A DNA stretch of 64,000 nt from Dehalococcoidia bacterium (GCA_009693055.1 SHYA01000002.1:124001-188000); one strand, 5' to 3'. Counted from the stretch's first letter, positions 6,954-45,574 are shown. The notes: generated from the sequence alone by a model not told the origin. Program-made: numbers and translations.

Positions 6954-8294
6954 ATGCCGGAAAATCCCGAAACGAAACTGCCCACAGGCGCGGTGACTAC
7001 GCCCCCTTCTGCAGCCGAGCCCGCTCCCAGCGGGAATGGCCAGTCGGGAACCCCGAGCACAGTAGCCGTTGCACCCGCCCCTAAGCGGACCCTAGGCTCC
7101 ACGTTTGAGGCGCTTCAGTACGCCAATTACCGGAACCTGTGGTTCGGCAACCTGTTTGGCGGCGGCGCTCTCTGGATCCAACAAATCACCGTCCCGTGGC
7201 TGGTCTACGACCTTACCGGCTCCGGCGCCATGCTGGGGCTGATCAATGGCATGTTTACCCTTCCGATCGCGTTGGTGGCCCCCTTCAGTGGCGCCATGGC
7301 TGACCGCGTGGACCGCAAAAAGATTCTGATAACGGCCCAGGTTTACCTGGGGATGTTATCTGTCCTCTTTGCGGTGGACGTGGGGCTTGACTATGTAGAG
7401 GTGTGGCACGTCTTTGTTTTCGTCCTCCTCATCGGTGCTGGGTTCGGCTTCATGTTCACGACCGGCCAGACGCTGATTCCAACCACGGTGCCACGCAAGG
7501 CGATTGTGAATGCAGTAGCCCTTAACAACACTTCTCTTAACGCTACACGGGCCATCGGGCCTGCCGTCGGCGGCCAACTCATCGCAACATTCGGCATTGC
7601 GGGGAACTTCTTCGTTCAGGCTGCTTGTTACTTCCTGGGTCTCATCTTTCTCTTTCGCGTGAAGCTTGACCCTGTTCCGAAGATTGCAGTTAGGCCGCCG
7701 TTTTTCCAGACCATGCAAGAGGGGTTCAAGTACGTGGGCTCGGATAAGGCGATACTGGCCCTTATCATCATGGGTTTGGGGCCGACGTTGTTTCTCTTCC
7801 CCACTGGCGCACTCATGCCAATCTTCGCTGTCGATGTATTCCATCGTGGCGCTCAGGGGTTTGGCATTCTCCTCACGGCCATCGGGGTCGGTGCGCTGAT
7901 TGGGGCGCTCAGCGTGGCGGCGATTGGAGAGGTCCGGCGGAAGGGGATCATCATGTACGCTCTGCTCTTCGCGGCCTTTGGCATGGTGCTGCTCTTCGCG
8001 TGGACCAGGTCTCTGCCGCTCGCCCTTCTCGTCTTGGGTCTCCAGGGGGCGTTTCAGACCGCGTACCTGGCTATTCAAGGGTCAACGCTTCAGCTCAAGG
8101 TGCCCAACCAGATGCTTGGCCGCGTGATGAGCGTGTCCATGCTGAACATCGCCATGTTCCCACTCGGCGGCCTTGTCGGCGGGCAACTGGCCGACGTGAT
8201 GAGTGGGCCATGGGCCGTTACCATCCTGGCGTTGGGCGGAATCACCTTCGTCGCGGCCACCATCGTGGCGTTGCCTGCATTTCGCAAGCTCTAG
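6954..8294 (+). CDS. MFS exporter 3 (pair B), EntS/MFS_3 type
   Basis: A 446-residue, about 12-span transporter of the same MFS_3 group. It belongs to a different branch: the core begins LQYANYRNLWFGNLFGGGALWIQ in place of the YRDYRLLW of pair A, and motif A is AMADRVDRKKIL. The first 45 residues are hydrophilic and rich in Pro, Ala and Thr. GGGGAA precedes the ATG at a suitable distance. It is closest to exporter 4. The 99-bp gap upstream could hold its own control; a perfect palindrome is there. Confidence 0.84.
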   Translation: MPENPETKLPTGAVTTPPSAAEPAPSGNGQSGTPSTVAVAPAPKRTLGSTFEALQYANYRNLWFGNLFGGGALWIQQITVPWLVYDLTGSGAMLGLINGMFTLPIALVAPFSGAMADRVDRKKILITAQVYLGMLSVLFAVDVGLDYVEVWHVFVFVLLIGAGFGFMFTTGQTLIPTTVPRKAIVNAVALNNTSLNATRAIGPAVGGQLIATFGIAGNFFVQAACYFLGLIFLFRVKLDPVPKIAVRPPFFQTMQEGFKYVGSDKAILALIIMGLGPTLFLFPTGALMPIFAVDVFHRGAQGFGILLTAIGVGALIGALSVAAIGEVRRKGIIMYALLFAAFGMVLLFAWTRSLPLALLVLGLQGAFQTAYLAIQGSTLQLKVPNQMLGRVMSVSMLNIAMFPLGGLVGGQLADVMSGPWAVTILALGGITFVAATIVALPAFRKL

Positions 8295-8349
8295 GGATTG
8301 CGTTACTACAGGACGAGCGCTTCCGAGCGAACGGGGCTGGGGGACATCG

Positions 8350-9729
8350 ATGCCAGACGAAACCAAACACACTCCGGCTTCACCGGTTGGCGCGGTAACG
8401 CCGACGGGAAACGGCGCGACTCCAACGGCGGGCGGCGCCGCCGCGAACGGCGGAGGCGGGACGCTGCGCGTTGCCACGTCCGCCGAAGCGCCTCCTGCGA
8501 AGCGCAAAATATCGTTCTTCTCCACCTTTGAGGCGCTGGGGTACCCGAACTTCCGGTCCTTGTGGATCGGGAACTTCTTTGGCGGCGGCGCCCTCTGGAT
8601 TCAGCAGATCACTGTGCCGTGGCTTGTGTATGACCTTACCGGCTCAGGAAAGTTACTCGGCCTGGTTCAAGGCGCGTTCGTCATCCCCATCGCTTTAGTA
8701 GCGCCGATCAGCGGGGTATTGGCTGACCGCATGGACCGCGCGAAGATCTTGATGGCGGCCCAGCTTTACCTGGGCATCGTCGCAGCGCTGTTTGCCGTCA
8801 ATGTGCAACTTGGCCACGTTCAGGCCTGGCACGTCTTCGTCTTCGTGCTGCTGATTGGCGGCGGGTTCGGCTTCATGATGACCACGGGCCAGACGCTTAT
8901 CCCCACCATGGTGCCTCGTCACGCCATTGTCAACGCCGCCGCGTTGGGCAGCACCTCCCAAAACGCCACACGCGCGATCGGCCCCGCCATTGGCGGCCAG
9001 CTCATTGTGGCGTTCGGTGTCGCGGGGAACTTCTTTATTCAGGCCGTGTTTTACGTCCTGGCGTTTGTGTTCGTTTCCCGTATCAAGCTGAGCGAGGAAG
9101 CGCGGCAACAGCAGCTTGCGACCAAACGGATGCCATTCTTCAAGACGATGGGTGAAGGGTTCAGCTACCTCAAGTCCGACAGGCCTGTGCTTGCCCTGGT
9201 CATCATGGGCGTGATCCCCATGGTCTTCCTCTTCCCAACGAACGCGCTGATGCCCATCTTCGCGGAGGAGGTGTTCCATCGCGGCGCCAAGGGCTTTGGC
9301 ATTCTGCTGACCGCCATCGGAGTCGGAGCGCTCATTGGGACCCTGGGCGTGGCGGCTATCGGGGACATGAAGCGCAAGGCTCTGGTCCTCCTCTCGCTGC
9401 TTATGGGGGCCTTCGCCATGGTCATCCTGTTCGCCTGGACCACCTCACTTCCGTTGGCGCTGCTCATGTTGGGTGTCCAGGGAGCCTGCCAAACGGCCTA
9501 CTTTTCCCTCCAGGGCGCGACGCTTCAGCTCAAGGTGCCGAACCATATGCTTGGCCGCGTGATGAGCGTCTCCGCGCTCAACATCGCGATGATCCCGCTG
9601 GGGGGCCTGGTTGGGGGAGTGCTCGCGGATGGGTTGAGTGCCCCGTGGGCGGTGACCATCCTGGGCGTTGGTGGCGTGAGCTTTATGGTGGTGGCCGCCT
9701 TCGCTCTGCCGGCCCTCCGCAAGCTCTAG
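8350..9729 (+). CDS. MFS exporter 4 (pair B), EntS/MFS_3 type
   Basis: A 459-residue paralogue of exporter 3; long stretches such as NYRNLWFGN/NFRSLWIGN and FGGGALWIQQITVPWLVYDLTGSG are nearly identical. About 12 membrane spans follow a 60-residue linker dominated by Thr, Pro, Gly and Ala, predicted to be disordered. The ATG at 8350 follows gggggac; the frame upstream is exporter 3 sequence read out of frame. It is the last gene of the MarR-exporter block and converges on gmk, with only a weak hairpin in the 54-bp gap. Confidence 0.84.
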   Translation: MPDETKHTPASPVGAVTPTGNGATPTAGGAAANGGGGTLRVATSAEAPPAKRKISFFSTFEALGYPNFRSLWIGNFFGGGALWIQQITVPWLVYDLTGSGKLLGLVQGAFVIPIALVAPISGVLADRMDRAKILMAAQLYLGIVAALFAVNVQLGHVQAWHVFVFVLLIGGGFGFMMTTGQTLIPTMVPRHAIVNAAALGSTSQNATRAIGPAIGGQLIVAFGVAGNFFIQAVFYVLAFVFVSRIKLSEEARQQQLATKRMPFFKTMGEGFSYLKSDRPVLALVIMGVIPMVFLFPTNALMPIFAEEVFHRGAKGFGILLTAIGVGALIGTLGVAAIGDMKRKALVLLSLLMGAFAMVILFAWTTSLPLALLMLGVQGACQTAYFSLQGATLQLKVPNHMLGRVMSVSALNIAMIPLGGLVGGVLADGLSAPWAVTILGVGGVSFMVVAAFALPALRKL

Positions 9730-13571: not shown

Positions 13572-14351
13572 TTACTCGTCGTCGTCCTCGTCCGGCAGCT
13601 GGGCGGGCTGCCGTTCAGACGCGCTGACCACCTGAGGCAGGAGCGCGGTGAATCGTTCCCCCTTGCCTGGGCGGCGAGATGGAACCTCCCGCAGGGCTTT
13701 GTGCAGCTCGGCCAGCGCCTCCGGGCCTACTTGGTCCGCCGATGCCACCAAGCCGTCTACTCCGGCGTCGCGCAGGCATTCCAATTCCCAGGCGGAAGGA
13801 ACGCCGCTGATGGGCAAAAAAAAGGGCTTTCCAAATAGCCCGCGCAGCCCTGCTAATTCCATGAGCCGGTCCAGAGTGAACGGAGGCGCTACGGCCTCTT
13901 GGGAGACGACGCCGTCAATAGGTGTTGCCTCCAGGGCACGGGCCTGCTCTTCGCTGAATTCCTTGGGGACGCTGAGCAAGTACGACACGTCATCGAGTTT
14001 CAGCGCATCCAGAGGGACCGCCAGCGAGTTGAAGATGACAAAGTCGCAGCCCTGCTTCTCGAGCAGCGACGACTGCTCTTTCGTCAACGTGTCCACCTGT
14101 ATCCCCCACGGGAGTTCGCCGGCGGCCTCCGCCAGCTTTTTGACCGCCGTTTGAGTCACCTGGCCGGAAGGCTTGAAGAGGAGGAGGTCGGCGAGTTTGG
14201 CCGCCTCCTGGCTGCGGTCCGCCTTGCCGAAGGATGCTACGAGCAGCATCGCGGGGGCGCGCTCCGGCCGCGCAGCGCGTCCAAGGCCAAACCCTAAAGG
14301 AATCGTCGCGCCTCGGTGAAGGCGCTCAAGCGCCTGGAACAACCGGCTCAT
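13572..14351 (-). CDS. Unknown protein, probable alpha/beta barrel
   Basis: A 259-residue soluble protein I do not recognise. Its strands and helices alternate regularly (for example MLLVASFG, ADLLLFK, GIQVDTL, DFVIFNS, YLLSVP, IDGVVSQE, FFLPISGV, GVDGLVASA), and the order suggests a TIM barrel. The segment LRDAGVDGLVASADQVGPEAL resembles the end of phosphate-binding barrels. The C-terminus ends in an acidic run (DEDDDE). There are no membrane segments and no catalytic signature I can name. It is on the same strand as the M50/tyrA/aroA/gmk group and may belong to that operon; the upstream neighbour is the HAD phosphatase. The directly repeated catcttaggg at 14416-14435 overlaps the HAD stop. 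Confidence 0.65.
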   Translation of the reverse strand: MSRLFQALERLHRGATIPLGFGLGRAARPERAPAMLLVASFGKADRSQEAAKLADLLLFKPSGQVTQTAVKKLAEAAGELPWGIQVDTLTKEQSSLLEKQGCDFVIFNSLAVPLDALKLDDVSYLLSVPKEFSEEQARALEATPIDGVVSQEAVAPPFTLDRLMELAGLRGLFGKPFFLPISGVPSAWELECLRDAGVDGLVASADQVGPEALAELHKALREVPSRRPGKGERFTALLPQVVSASERQPAQLPDEDDDE

Positions 14352-14429: not shown

Positions 14430-15119
14430 TTAGGGCACAGTCGCGTGGGTGCGCCAGCGGAGCGTCGGCCAGTTGCGATGCTGGGCCAGTCTTCGGAGGC
14501 CGCGACTGGCGTTGACCACAACGGGGTGTCCGGCAGCCTCCAAGAAGGGCCGATCACTGGAGTGGTCCGCGTAGGCGTGGCTCTGGTCCAACGCGATGTG
14601 CAGCTCGACGGCAGCGGCTTGGAGCGATGCCACCTTGCCCTTATGCACGGGTATAACGCCGGTGAGCAGCCCGGTGAGCAGCCCGTCCGCTGTATCCATA
14701 TGCGCGGCATAGAGGGCATCGGCTTCCAGGTAGCCCGCCAACGGTTCCAGCATCAGGGAGAGACCTCCGCTCACGATGACGACGAGGTGGCCTTGGGCCT
14801 TGTGCGCCTTGATCCGCGTGACGGCGTCCGTAAAGAGACTGCGCCGCCAAAACCGCTCGCCGGCCCCCTGTTGCCAGGCTTTGACGTCGTCCAATCGGAT
14901 GCCACGGTAGTTGCGCGAAAACCTAGTGTTGAAGAGGCGGCGATCGTACAGGTCGAGAAGCAGGTAGTACGGCGTCCGGAGCGCGAAGCCCGCCAGCCAC
15001 GCCCAGAACCGGAGTCCTTGCAAGCGCGATCGTTGGAAGTCCAAAAACACGACGAAGACGTTGGAGGAAGCCATAGTGCCGTCCACGTCAAAGAAAGCGG
15101 CGGTGCGGAGCGAGGTCAC
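14430..15119 (-). CDS. HAD-IB (SerB-like) phosphatase
   Basis: A 229-residue HAD hydrolase. Motif I is FFDVDGTMASSNV at the N-terminus with the nucleophile Asp and the second Asp two residues on; motif II is VIVSGG; the later lysine (HKGKV) and the DHSSDRPFLEAAG segment are motifs III and IV. The cap helices between motifs I and II are rich in aromatic residues (FWAWLAGFALRTPYYLLLDLY), suggesting contact with membrane or lipid. The GTG start overlaps the stop of the reductase/acyltransferase by four bases. In mycobacteria HAD-IB and PlsC domains occur in one polypeptide (Rv2483c), so a role in phospholipid or lysophospholipid dephosphorylation is a reasonable inference. Confidence 0.85.
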   Translation of the reverse strand: MTSLRTAAFFDVDGTMASSNVFVVFLDFQRSRLQGLRFWAWLAGFALRTPYYLLLDLYDRRLFNTRFSRNYRGIRLDDVKAWQQGAGERFWRRSLFTDAVTRIKAHKAQGHLVVIVSGGLSLMLEPLAGYLEADALYAAHMDTADGLLTGLLTGVIPVHKGKVASLQAAAVELHIALDQSHAYADHSSDRPFLEAAGHPVVVNASRGLRRLAQHRNWPTLRWRTHATVP

Positions 15120-17542
15120 GCCGGTCCGCCCGGGTCCCCGGGCGCCAATGCCTCCACCGCCTGCTGGATCTCCGCGGTGACCTGGCGGGCCAGCTCGGCG
15201 GGGCTTTCGTTTGCGGAGGCGGCCTCTGCGGAGATGGGACGCCCGAAGCGGATGCTCACCCGCCGTGGTCGCGGCAGCGCGCGGCCCTTCGGCATGGCCT
15301 GGAAAGAGCCCGCTATGTAAGCCGGCACCACGGGAACGCCGGACTCCACGGCCAGCAATCCGATGCCCCGTTTGAACGGCTGAATGGCCCCGGTTGGGCT
15401 GCGGGCTCCCTCCGGGAAGAAGATGAGGGGATGGCCGTAGCGGAGGATGCCTAAGGCCAGGCCAAGGCTCTCTCCCACGTGGCTCTGCCGGTCAAAGGGA
15501 GCAGCGTTGAGAAAGACGTGGGACGCCCAACTCTTGAAGGTGGTGTTGAAGAAGTAGTCCTTGGCTGCAAGCGGATGGATGTTCCTGTTGCGGCTGCTCA
15601 GAGCTGCCGTGATCGCTCCCGCGTCAAGGTGGCTGCAGTGATTGGAGACGACGATGAACGGTCCCTGGTTTGGCACGTTCTCCAGCCCTGAAACCTTCAG
15701 GTGCAGGTACCAGCGGAAGCTCAACGTGAGCAGAAAACGCCAGACGCTGCGGGCTGGAAAGACTGGCGGTGAGGCGCGTATCCAGCGCTTGACCTCCTCC
15801 GGCGAAGCGGCAACGATAGCAGCGCCGGCCGGCTTCCGCGTGGCGCTTGGCGCAACGCCGGCCGGCTCGCCCTGCTGTGTTGAGGCGGTCGGCTGCGCGG
15901 AGGGAGACACCTCTTCGGTCTCTTCTGGAGGGGCTGCCGACCGGACGGGCGGCTCTGCGCCGGGCGCCCTGGGGAGCCCCAGCAAGAACTTCCGAATACC
16001 GGGGATGTGCACTTCCTTGAGGTAATTGGCCCAATCAATGCTCTTCATGTCAAAGTTGAAGCGTTGCTGCTCCTCCTCCGTGAGGGAGTCCCAGACGGAG
16101 CGGAGGTTGTGCGTCAGATATTGGCATCGCGCTTCCGCGTACGGGCCGTAGAGCCGGGCGTAGAGGACTAAACGCTGGAGGGACGACCGTTTGGAGTCAA
16201 GGCTGCGCAGAGCTTTCCGGCGGCGCCTCGCGGATGGGATTAGCCTTGCCAGGGCCCCCGTCAGAGTGAGTGGGACCCCGTGGCGAAGGAAGAGTTTTCT
16301 CAAGTAGGCTTTCGTAGAGGGGAAGGTCATGTCAGGTAGCCGCTGCGGCCTGTTTGCACGGCTGGTAAGCGGCCGCTGGCGGAAATGCTCCTGCACCAGC
16401 TCCGCAAAACGCGGCAGGAGCAACGGGTTCTCCATGCCGGTCGCCACGTGGAAGATCTGGAGTCCGCCCCGGTCATGCGCCCAGGGCACGGTGGCAAGAA
16501 CCGCATTCACGACTATGTCCACGGGCACGATGTCCAGGATCCCCTCCCGGTTGCCCGGGAAGTCGGGAAGGCGCTCCCTCCCATACGCCACGATAAGGGG
16601 GTCGAGCATCCGGAACCCGTCCAGCCAGCCCGGTTCAGGTGTTCCTAAGGAGCTCTCGATGATGGAGGGCCGGAGGATGAGCACCGGGACGTCCCTACGG
16701 TGGCGCACGAGCATCTGTTCGCCCATCGCCTTAGTGAACGTGTACACGTCGTTCCATCCGCGACGCTGTGCCCAGCGGAACCCTTCGGCGACGAGCTGCG
16801 CATCAAGCCGCTGCTCTTCGGGCGAGCGAGTGTCGCGCTGGGAGCCGTTGCGGGCGGGCGCGGCCTGGGAAACGGTCTCCCTGGGAACGGCTATTGACTG
16901 CGCCGCTTCGCGAGAGCGGAGGAGGGCGACTCGCGACTGGATGGCGCGGATCTCTTCCTCCACATCGTACGGAGGCTCTCGGCGCCCGTTGATCAGGCCG
17001 ACCGTCAGCGTGGGCGAGAAGGGCTCCTCCGGCACGGGGCCGTGCCGCGTGCCGTTGACGTAGCACGTGGAGATGTGAGCGAGGATGGCCTTTGGCGCCC
17101 CGCGGGTGAACTCCAGCACACGGACTGTGGCCAGCGTGTTCATAGCCAAGGCTTGGTCCAGCGGGGCGTCAAACGAGACCATCGCGGCGCTGTTAATCAC
17201 CACATCCACTTCTGCCTGAAGCTGCCGGTACTGGGCTTCGGAAAGGCCAAACAACTCTTCGCCAAGGTCACCGGAAAGCGGGACCACTTTTTGTTGGACA
17301 AACGCCGCAAAGCCGTCGCCATGACGGGCACGGAGGCGGTTGAATGCAGGTGTGGCCAGGACCTCTTGCGTGAAGCGCGTCTCGGAGGAGACCCCAGCCC
17401 CCTTGGGCCGAATGAGCACGTAAAGGCGGCGCACTTGCGGCAGGTCGTAAAGCAGCTTTTCGATGAGGACCTTGCCCACAAGTCCGGTAACGCCGCTGAT
17501 GAGCAGCGTTTTATCGGAGTAGTAGTCGTCAATGCGGCGCAT
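15116..17542 (-). CDS. Fatty-acyl reductase / PlsC acyltransferase fusion
   Basis: An 808-residue two-part protein. Residues 1 to about 400 form an extended SDR domain of the fatty-acyl-CoA reductase (male-sterility) type: SGVTGLVGK at 16-24 binds NADP and Tyr267-Lys271 (YTFTK) is the catalytic pair. Residues of about 430-535 match the reductase C-terminal domain, with its signature around SIDWANYLKEVHIPGIRKFLL. A Pro/Glu/Ala-rich linker (about 538-595) leads to a PlsC domain with NHCSHLD at about 634-640 and FPEGARS at about 709-715. It would make fatty aldehyde or alcohol from acyl thioesters and acylate a lysophosphatidate-like acceptor. The overlap with the HAD phosphatase points to one lipid pathway. 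The ATG has AGGTAGG upstream. Confidence 0.86.
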   Translation of the reverse strand: MRRIDDYYSDKTLLISGVTGLVGKVLIEKLLYDLPQVRRLYVLIRPKGAGVSSETRFTQEVLATPAFNRLRARHGDGFAAFVQQKVVPLSGDLGEELFGLSEAQYRQLQAEVDVVINSAAMVSFDAPLDQALAMNTLATVRVLEFTRGAPKAILAHISTCYVNGTRHGPVPEEPFSPTLTVGLINGRREPPYDVEEEIRAIQSRVALLRSREAAQSIAVPRETVSQAAPARNGSQRDTRSPEEQRLDAQLVAEGFRWAQRRGWNDVYTFTKAMGEQMLVRHRRDVPVLILRPSIIESSLGTPEPGWLDGFRMLDPLIVAYGRERLPDFPGNREGILDIVPVDIVVNAVLATVPWAHDRGGLQIFHVATGMENPLLLPRFAELVQEHFRQRPLTSRANRPQRLPDMTFPSTKAYLRKLFLRHGVPLTLTGALARLIPSARRRRKALRSLDSKRSSLQRLVLYARLYGPYAEARCQYLTHNLRSVWDSLTEEEQQRFNFDMKSIDWANYLKEVHIPGIRKFLLGLPRAPGAEPPVRSAAPPEETEEVSPSAQPTASTQQGEPAGVAPSATRKPAGAAIVAASPEEVKRWIRASPPVFPARSVWRFLLTLSFRWYLHLKVSGLENVPNQGPFIVVSNHCSHLDAGAITAALSSRNRNIHPLAAKDYFFNTTFKSWASHVFLNAAPFDRQSHVGESLGLALGILRYGHPLIFFPEGARSPTGAIQPFKRGIGLLAVESGVPVVPAYIAGSFQAMPKGRALPRPRRVSIRFGRPISAEAASANESPAELARQVTAEIQQAVEALAPGDPGGPA

Positions 17543-34174: not shown

Positions 34175-35169
34175 AGGTCCTGGTTACCGGGGCCACGGGT
34201 TTTGTTGGGAACCACGTGGCCCAGGCACTGGCGGGCCGTGGCGCGGCTGTCCGCGTCCTGGCGCGCAGCGGAAGCCCGCACCTTACCAGGCTCAATACGG
34301 GTTGGGAGCTGGTCCTGGGAGACGTCCAGGACCCCGCCTCGGTGCGAGAGGCCGTTCGCGGGTGTGACGCGGTGTTCCACGTCGCGGCCCGCTACAGCTT
34401 CTGGCCCACCGGCGTCCGTTCCTACTACGCGACCAACGTTGTGGGGACAAGGAACGTATTGCAGGCGGCGCTGGAAGCGGGAGTCAAACGGGTCGTGCAC
34501 ACCAGCTCATGGGTCACGGTGGGCAAAAACCGATCTGGCGGTCTCAGCACGGAGGCGGATACACCGAGTCGGAGCGAGCTCCGCGGCGCTTACCGCTGGA
34601 CCAAGTACCTTGCCGAGCAGGAGGCGCTGGGCTATGCGGCCAAAGGCCTGAACGTGGTGGTGGTGAACCCGACAGTCCCGGTGGGTCCCGGAGACGCGAG
34701 GCCCACGCCGACCGGCAGGCTGGTGGTGGACTTCTTGCGGCGGCGTCTGCCGGCGTTCGTGGACGTGCAGTTGAATCTGGTGGGAGTAGAGGACGTGGCC
34801 GAAGGACACGTGCTGGCGTGGGAGAAGGGGCGGGCCGGCGAGCGGTACCTGCTGGGGTGCAGCAACATGACCCTGGGGCAAATGCTCGGCGTGCTGGCGC
34901 GGCAGACCGGCATTCGGGCGCCGCGTCTCCGGTTGCCTCAGCCGCTGGTCCTGGCGGCCGCCTACGCGGACAACGCGATCGAGGGAGGCTTGCTGCGACG
35001 AGAGCCACGCATCCCTCTGGAAGGTGTCCTGCACGCGGGACGGCGCGTCCAGGTGGACTGCCGGAAGGCGACGCAAGAGCTTGGCTTTCAACCCACCTCT
35101 GTGGAGGAGGCGCTGCTGAGAGCGGTCAACTGGTACCGCCAAAACGGATATGCAAACGAGAGACGTTAG
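34171..35169 (+). CDS. hpnA: Hopanoid-associated sugar epimerase (HpnA)
   Basis: A 332-residue extended SDR. TGATGFVGNHVA binds NAD at the N-terminus; HTSSWVTVG carries the catalytic serine region and YRWTK the Tyr-Lys pair. NPTVPVGPGDARPTPTGR is characteristic of the HpnA group. The exact reaction of HpnA is not settled; it is consistently linked to hopanoid clusters. The ATG overlaps the hpnG stop (ATGA), and the stop is 3 bp before shc. Another SDR at 44603 closes the same gene run. Confidence 0.88.
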   Translation: MKVLVTGATGFVGNHVAQALAGRGAAVRVLARSGSPHLTRLNTGWELVLGDVQDPASVREAVRGCDAVFHVAARYSFWPTGVRSYYATNVVGTRNVLQAALEAGVKRVVHTSSWVTVGKNRSGGLSTEADTPSRSELRGAYRWTKYLAEQEALGYAAKGLNVVVVNPTVPVGPGDARPTPTGRLVVDFLRRRLPAFVDVQLNLVGVEDVAEGHVLAWEKGRAGERYLLGCSNMTLGQMLGVLARQTGIRAPRLRLPQPLVLAAAYADNAIEGGLLRREPRIPLEGVLHAGRRVQVDCRKATQELGFQPTSVEEALLRAVNWYRQNGYANERR

Positions 35170-44622: not shown

Positions 44623-45574
44623 GCAATTCAGGGTGGCGGTCACCGGCGCCACGGGTTACGTGGGCTCCAGGCTGACCCTTGCGCTCTCCCGTTTCGACGA
44701 AGTTGAGTCGGTCCTGGCGCTTGACACGCGCCAACTCCCCTCGCTGCCGCCAAAGGCCCGAATGCTCCTCTGTGACGTTGGGTCCAGGGACGCGCTGGAA
44801 CGTGCGTTTGCGGAGTACCAGCCGGACGTTGTTGTCCACCTGGCGTACCGGATGAACCCCGGTTACGACCGGGAGGCGGCGCGGCGCATCAACGTCGGCG
44901 GCACCGCCAACCTGTTACAGGCTTGTGGCCGGGCGAAGGTGCGACTCATCGTGTATCTGAGCAGCACGTCCGTGTACGGTGCGCATCCCGATAATCCTAA
45001 GCTCCTCACCGAAAAACAACCCCCGCGGCCGGTGCGGGGGTTTGCCTATTCGGAGGACAAGCTCGCGTCGGAACGGCTGTTTGGGGAGTACGCTTCGCAG
45101 CACCCGGACACCATCGTGACGGTGCTGCGGGGGTGCGTGGTGATGGGGCCGCACGCGAACAACTTCATCGCCAACGCGCTCACGAAACCGGTGATGGTGG
45201 GTGTCTTAGGATGCGACCCGCCGATGCAGTTCCTCCACGAAGACGACCTGGTGGAGCTCCTGATCCGCCTTATTCACGAGCCGCAGCCCGGCATTTACAA
45301 CGTCGGCGGTGAGGGGACGGTGCGCTACAGCCGCGTAGTGCGCGCGTCCGGGCGTCCACTCGTCCGGCTGCCGGCTCTGGTGCTCTATCCGGTCATCCAG
45401 CTGCTGTGGCTGCTGCGCGCGCAGAGGGACTCACCCGCGTGTGGCCTTGACCTCGTCCGGTGGCCGTGGGTGGCCAGCGCGGAGAAGCTCAAGGCTGAGA
45501 CCGGCTTCAAACCGCGCTACACTTCGCAGCAGGCGCTGGAAGCGTTTTTGGCGGCCCGGAGGACAAGGAGCTAG
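44603..45574 (+). CDS. NAD-dependent epimerase/dehydratase (extended SDR)
   Basis: A 323-residue extended SDR. VAVTGATGYVGSRLTLAL binds NAD near the N-terminus; LSSTSVYGAH and YSEDKLASERL give the Ser and Tyr-Lys active site. MQFLHEDDLVELLIRLI and GIYNVGGEGTVRYS are typical of sugar-nucleotide epimerase relatives. The ATG at 44603 lies within the preceding gene; a TTG at 44591 would add four residues. It closes the plus-strand run that began with the prenyl synthase. It is a distant relative of HpnA at 34171, so two SDR enzymes bracket the module. Confidence 0.87.
   Translation: MSSKRFRQFRVAVTGATGYVGSRLTLALSRFDEVESVLALDTRQLPSLPPKARMLLCDVGSRDALERAFAEYQPDVVVHLAYRMNPGYDREAARRINVGGTANLLQACGRAKVRLIVYLSSTSVYGAHPDNPKLLTEKQPPRPVRGFAYSEDKLASERLFGEYASQHPDTIVTVLRGCVVMGPHANNFIANALTKPVMVGVLGCDPPMQFLHEDDLVELLIRLIHEPQPGIYNVGGEGTVRYSRVVRASGRPLVRLPALVLYPVIQLLWLLRAQRDSPACGLDLVRWPWVASAEKLKAETGFKPRYTSQQALEAFLAARRTRS

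Follow-up and report, generated by a model that had tools for sequence, protein, structure and literature searches.

Which lipid is made by a protein that joins a fatty acyl reductase (FAR) to a PlsC acyltransferase, and is such a fusion genuine? The question is raised by a locus in a 64,000-nucleotide stretch of a Dehalococcoidia metagenome-assembled genome (MAG), hereafter the window. An earlier reading, made from the sequence alone, had described one 808-residue protein comprising a reductase, its C-terminal domain and PlsC, joined through a disordered linker, and an overlapping gene for an HAD-IB phosphatase. It proposed that the three activities act in one route, leading to wax, ether-type or other unusual lipids. 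The features of the locus are as follows.

15116-17542, minus strand: FAR-PlsC fusion gene (reduced ElbD-like), 808 aa; intact ORF with Pfam and PDB matches, same fusion in G744, L004 and L005
16499-17500, minus strand: FAR NAD(P)-binding domain NAD_binding_4, PF07993, aa 15-348 (Pfam, 1e-62)
17474-17497, minus strand: NADP-binding glycine motif SGVTGLVG, aa 16-23, read from the sequence
16730-16744, minus strand: catalytic YxxxK, intact as YTFTK, aa 267-271
15980-16162, minus strand: FAR C-terminal 'Sterile' domain, PF03015, aa 461-521 (Pfam, 1.6e-13)
15743-15979, minus strand: low-complexity linker, aa ~522-600, no family match
15314-15700, minus strand: PlsC acyltransferase domain, PF01553, aa 615-743 (Pfam, 3.5e-23), NHCSHLD and FPEG intact
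14430-15119, minus strand: HAD-IB phosphatase gene, 229 aa, GTG start (TIGR01490; PF12710, 3.8e-28)

The fusion starts with ATG and runs for 808 codons without internal stops, and the Pfam domains bear out its description as a single protein. The FAR and PlsC halves are each complete, with all motifs intact. Among solved structures, the best match of the whole protein was the fatty acyl-CoA reductase 7eoz (4e-83), and that of the PlsC half was 5kym (6e-19); an AlphaFold model of the fusion (4 sequences) had a mean pLDDT of 50.8 and was disregarded. The linker does look disordered, its length and sequence vary among relatives, and it occupies the site at which ElbD-type relatives carry an acyl ligase and an acyl carrier protein (ACP). 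A motif equivalent to SGVTGLVG was present in all 30 FARs of our FAR tree. The HAD gene overlaps the fusion gene by 4 bp, and its product scored 130.6 bits against TIGR01490 (cut-off 98.3), with both FDVDGT (DxDGT) and DHSSD intact, in agreement with the phosphatase proposed earlier. The mycobacterial HAD-IB/PlsC fusion named in that reading, Rv2483c, is likewise documented (PMC4850399). Elsewhere in the window, two weaker NAD_binding_4 matches lie in frames of 357 aa (~34183-34686, plus strand) and 328 aa (~44822-45148, plus strand), which are probably ordinary SDR epimerases and not FARs. Two tandem related MFS transporter genes occupy 6954-9729 (plus strand).

A fusion seen in a MAG could be an assembly error. 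G744, a genome from the same family, encodes FAR, linker and PlsC in a single ORF (identity of 69% for FAR and 58% for PlsC), which also overlaps its own HAD gene by 4 bp (HAD 51% identical). Five genes next to HAD are common to both loci, encoding a 259-aa protein, an M50 protease, TyrA, AroA and Gmk. Because the fusion, the overlap and the synteny are shared, an assembly error is ruled out. A foreign contig is ruled out by the uniform GC content and by the kinship of AroA, which is 71% identical to that of G744, with identity falling off with kinship. An order-mate (G760) possesses the same block, from a 259-aa-type unknown protein to Gmk, without FAR-PlsC and HAD, so that the two genes were probably gained or lost together. 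The 259-aa protein of the window (13572-14351, minus strand) has no Pfam or NCBIfam match and lies beside M50-TyrA-AroA-Gmk in both G744 (52%) and G760 (34%).

Surveying domain order across genomes, we found FAR-PlsC, FAR-HAD and FAR-ligase-ACP-PlsC forms. The first, together with HAD, also occurs in the Chloroflexota MAGs SAR202-VII-2 (L004) and KW1-S15_215 (L005); among 393 genomes of the class, the full fusion was detected in this genome only, with one fragment in G005. Relatives of ~1460 aa, with the order FAR, AMP-binding ligase, ACP and PlsC, are encoded in MAGs of Binatota type and in one MAG each of 'Acidobacteria' (L006) and Verrucomicrobia (L015); the ligase lies within the FAR protein in L006, L015, L017 and L020. 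FARs of this kind were present in 24 of 400 Chloroflexota genomes, 22 of which belong to one other family (f117), whose proteins of ~790 aa fuse FAR to HAD, PlsC being encoded in the same operon. The three activities are also clustered in Binatota and other phyla. Their joining in different permutations strongly argues for joint action, in line with the single route proposed from the sequence alone.

Several other genes lie at these loci. A FAD-dependent oxidoreductase (DAO) gene directly follows HAD in SAR202-VII-2 (L004:9250-10455, plus strand). At many Binatota loci (L017, L018, L020, L024 and others), the genes downstream of the ElbD-type gene encode a dual-specificity-phosphatase-like protein of 179 aa, a phosphatidylcholine-synthase-like protein and an uncharacterised protein of 599 aa. 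In Latescibacterota, a 664-aa ORF (L007:5827-7818, with equivalents in L008-L016) lies between FAR and the gene for alkyl-DHAP synthase (AGPS); it has a weak acyltransferase match (0.012) and is possibly a divergent DHAP acyltransferase.

In the FAR phylogeny, the proteins of the window, L004 and L005 formed one clade (100/100) adjoining the ElbD-architecture protein L006 (85/70), and a second tree placed this clade with L006 and L015 (87/98). FARs from the AGPS operons of Latescibacterota and those of f117 lie nearby, and the exact sister of the window clade is unsure because several branches are long. In the PlsC phylogeny, the same three proteins fell into a group (92/87) with the PlsCs of ElbD and of cyanobacteria, among the latter L034, which adjoins AGPS; the PlsCs of their class lay elsewhere, and those of f117 were recruited separately. 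The domains of the fusion thus share ancestry with those of ElbD. On the simplest reading of these sequences, the fusion would be an ElbD-like protein in which ligase and ACP are absent, through either loss here or gain elsewhere.

We then searched for the enzymes that would mark the two named products, an AGPS for ether lipids and a wax synthase (WS/DGAT) for wax. Four proteins of this genome contain PF02913 (FAD-oxidase_C), namely a GlcD-like, a GlcE-like, a 987-aa lactate-dehydrogenase type and a generic 463-aa oxidase, and none is an AGPS; a bacterial AGPS used as query had no match in the genome. The 463-aa oxidase (contig C6) was rejected as a candidate: it matches D-lactate dehydrogenase over nearly its full length (8e-49), AGPS over the FAD domain only, and is common in the class in genomes without FAR. 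Searches for AGPS were also negative in L004, in L005 and in all 24 of the 400 Chloroflexota genomes that have a FAR, and the window contains neither an AGPS nor a LarAH gene (see below). A true AGPS (HHHGVGK) adjoins FAR in L006 and in Latescibacterota. WS/DGAT (PF03007) was not detected in this genome, while the same search was positive in 9 of 151 genomes of the phylum. As the MAG is 94% complete, both absences are provisional. The wax product suggested earlier is thus unlikely, given the lack of a WS/DGAT match; the ether-type lipid holds as the leading option, with ElbD and FARAT as precedents, but is unproven, and the canonical AGPS, the one O-alkyl-forming enzyme that is well understood, was not found.

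A different gene accompanies FAR where AGPS does not. At 45 FAR loci outside the window, we found LarAH at 32, AGPS at nine, both at none and neither at four, three of which end at contig ends (L010, L019 and L030). LarAH denotes NCBIfam NF052592 (LarAH14/15/16), a nickel-pincer-nucleotide 'hydroxyacid isomerase'. Of the 400 Chloroflexota genomes, 24 carried FAR and 23 LarAH, with an overlap of 22 (Fisher p 7e-33), a value inflated by shared ancestry that overstates independence, most of the co-occurrence coming from f117. The carriers outside that family, this genome and G601, help in this respect. In all 12 loci L128-L139 (f117 and G601, Chloroflexota), the FAR-HAD fusion is followed by genes for an alcohol dehydrogenase (ADH), LarAH and PlsC. 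This genome encodes a LarAH (809 bits against NF052592, cut-off 740) in an operon with a Zn-dependent ADH at the end of contig C9 (G000:C9:209113-212047; L148:6113-9047), unlinked to the window. The ADH is of the same type as that clustering with FAR and LarAH in other lineages and resembles polyol and sugar dehydrogenases; LarC, the NPN nickel-insertion protein, is encoded on contig C11. LarAH and ADH are further conserved partners of FAR, PlsC and HAD, previously undescribed in that role. Among the ten best matches of our literature search, no paper linked LarA to ether lipids; the supplementary tables of PMC7583248, which give the neighbours of each LarA group, may already note the association. 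In plasmids, we found no LarAH of the LarAH14/15/16 group, and a FAR-like match on one Streptomyces megaplasmid.

LarAH retains the first catalytic histidine (LHR), as well as GGxK and HHN. A histidine at the second catalytic position is absent in 11 out of 11 members, so the reaction may not be a racemisation. Its closest solved relatives are single-histidine LarA-like enzymes (PDB 9q2u, 9q3k and 9q3j). Known LarA enzymes act on 2-hydroxy acids, sugar acids included (PMC11770544), and a LarAH14 of Frankia was inactive on the hydroxy acids tested (PMC7583248). In Binatota, the gene order HAD, LarAH, ElbD-type parallels elbB, elbC, elbD of Myxococcus xanthus, whose ElbC has no assigned function in the published description (PMC9131029). 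From this gene order, we predict that ElbC is a LarA homologue.

We propose, at about even chances, that the fusion belongs to the ElbD group as a reduced form serving the synthesis of alkyl-glycerolipids independently of AGPS, with LarAH and ADH as partners. The FAR half would use NADPH to turn an activated fatty acid into a fatty aldehyde or alcohol. Since built-in ligase and carrier domains are absent, acyl-CoA or acyl-ACP would be supplied from outside. The PlsC half would acylate a glycerol-phosphate-type partner, and the co-translated HAD phosphatase would dephosphorylate the lipid product. The unlinked ADH-LarAH operon probably completes the route, supplying the missing chemistry, and the outcome would be an alkyl-type (ether) glycerolipid made without AGPS. 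The substrates, the order of the steps and the roles of ADH and LarAH are, like the ether product, inferred. More tentatively, it is possible that a FAR/PlsC/HAD pathway to ether lipids employs ADH and LarAH, with its missing second catalytic histidine, in place of AGPS and its reductase, and that ElbC is such a LarA homologue.

The co-occurrence and clustering of LarAH and ADH with FAR, HAD and PlsC could be read differently, as a lipid with a hydroxy acid or sugar acid (such as glycerate or an aldonate) for its backbone or head group. LarAH and ADH would prepare that moiety, FAR would provide an alkyl chain, PlsC an acyl chain, and HAD would remove the phosphate. The known substrates of LarA and the resemblance of the ADH to polyol and sugar dehydrogenases fit this reading. 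However, both halves of the fusion come from lineages that occur in ElbD proteins and next to AGPS, the LarAH group lacks the second catalytic histidine, and the Frankia enzyme was inactive on the hydroxy acids tested, all of which make it doubtful. An ordinary ester glycerolipid or triacylglycerol would assign the role of LPA acyltransferase to PlsC, that of phosphatidate phosphatase to HAD, and to FAR a side role such as removing acyl-CoA or aldehyde, as might be expected from the HAD-PlsC fusions proposed as phosphatidate phosphatases in triacylglycerol synthesis (PMC4850399). We consider it rather unlikely, given how rare the gene set is (the full fusion in one of 393 class genomes), the position of the fused PlsC outside the ordinary PlsC lineage of the class and the retention of FAR with an intact NADP motif in every lineage.

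The remaining explanations concern the two searched-for enzymes. A wax ester or free fatty alcohol, with FAR making the alcohol and PlsC or another enzyme esterifying it, has a parallel in the mycobacterial FAR enzymes that serve wax synthesis (PMC3522743), but HAD has no place in wax synthesis and the WS/DGAT search was negative here, and we judge it unlikely. It is very unlikely that the pathway is the canonical AGPS type, its AGPS gene missing only through MAG incompleteness. The 94% completeness leaves room for such a gap, and FARs of the window group adjoin AGPS in Latescibacterota and L006; yet AGPS was also not found in L004 or L005, which carry the same fusion, or in any of the FAR genomes (24 of 400 Chloroflexota), and it never shares a FAR locus with LarAH.

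Returning to AGPS-independent alkyl-glycerolipid synthesis, the partners named so far for the largely AGPS-free ether-lipid synthesis by ElbD are only HAD, an epimerase and 'unknown' proteins. The FAR/PlsC/HAD/LarAH/ADH set, found in at least three permutations, names specific candidate enzymes and leads to the prediction that uncultured Chloroflexota and Binatota make alkyl lipids. The part likely to surprise the specialist is the association with LarAH, which never coincided with AGPS at the FAR loci read. This association places an orphan group of nickel-pincer enzymes in a context that can be tested. If the replacement of AGPS by LarAH and ADH were true, single-histidine LarA enzymes would gain a function in lipid synthesis and AGPS-independent ether lipids would be explained.

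The domain set of the window is that of ElbD/ElbB and of FARAT, precedents that the sequence-only reading had not named. FARAT (fatA) of Dictyostelium, which fuses FAR to an acyltransferase, initiates ether-lipid synthesis (PMC7375469). It has FAR followed by an acyltransferase in one chain, as in the window protein, but is eukaryotic and peroxisomal, with a GPAT/DHAPAT-type acyltransferase and a separate AGPS, whereas the window protein carries PlsC in a genome where AGPS was not found. The same two differences set apart MXAN_1675 of M. xanthus, a two-part FAR-acyltransferase chain that is GNPAT-like and encoded beside the AGPS MXAN_1676 (PMC9131029). Rv2483c and the rhodococcal PlsC-HAD fusions, proposed for triacylglycerol synthesis (PMC4850399), couple HAD with PlsC as the window does, but by joining them in one protein and with no FAR. 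Regarding the partner enzyme, those of 9q2u, 9q3k and 9q3j lack the second catalytic histidine, like the LarAH of this genome, but they come from Blautia and Streptococcus, fall into another LarA group and have glycolytic genes as neighbours (PMC12611868).

The elb operon of M. xanthus (MIBiG BGC0000871) serves ether-lipid synthesis. ElbD has the architecture FAR-ACS-ACP-AT, and its operon also holds the HAD gene elbB (PMC9131029, PMC9426513), as the window holds the HAD gene at 14430-15119. ElbD is required for most of the alkyl and vinyl ether lipid of M. xanthus, while disruption of AGPS has a minor effect; neither FAR nor acyltransferase activity of ElbD could be shown in vitro (PMC9131029), and genomes with elbD do not always go with ether lipids, as in Pontiella (PMC11868695). 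Both proteins carry an N-terminal FAR and a C-terminal PlsC in one chain, and the window PlsC belongs to the ElbD PlsC lineage. In ElbD, the two domains are separated by an acyl-CoA ligase and an ACP, whereas the window protein has only a linker there, and equivalents of elbA, elbC and elbE are not found beside the fusion. Having no internal ligase or ACP, the window protein is, therefore, placed as a reduced relative of ElbD and not as ElbD itself.
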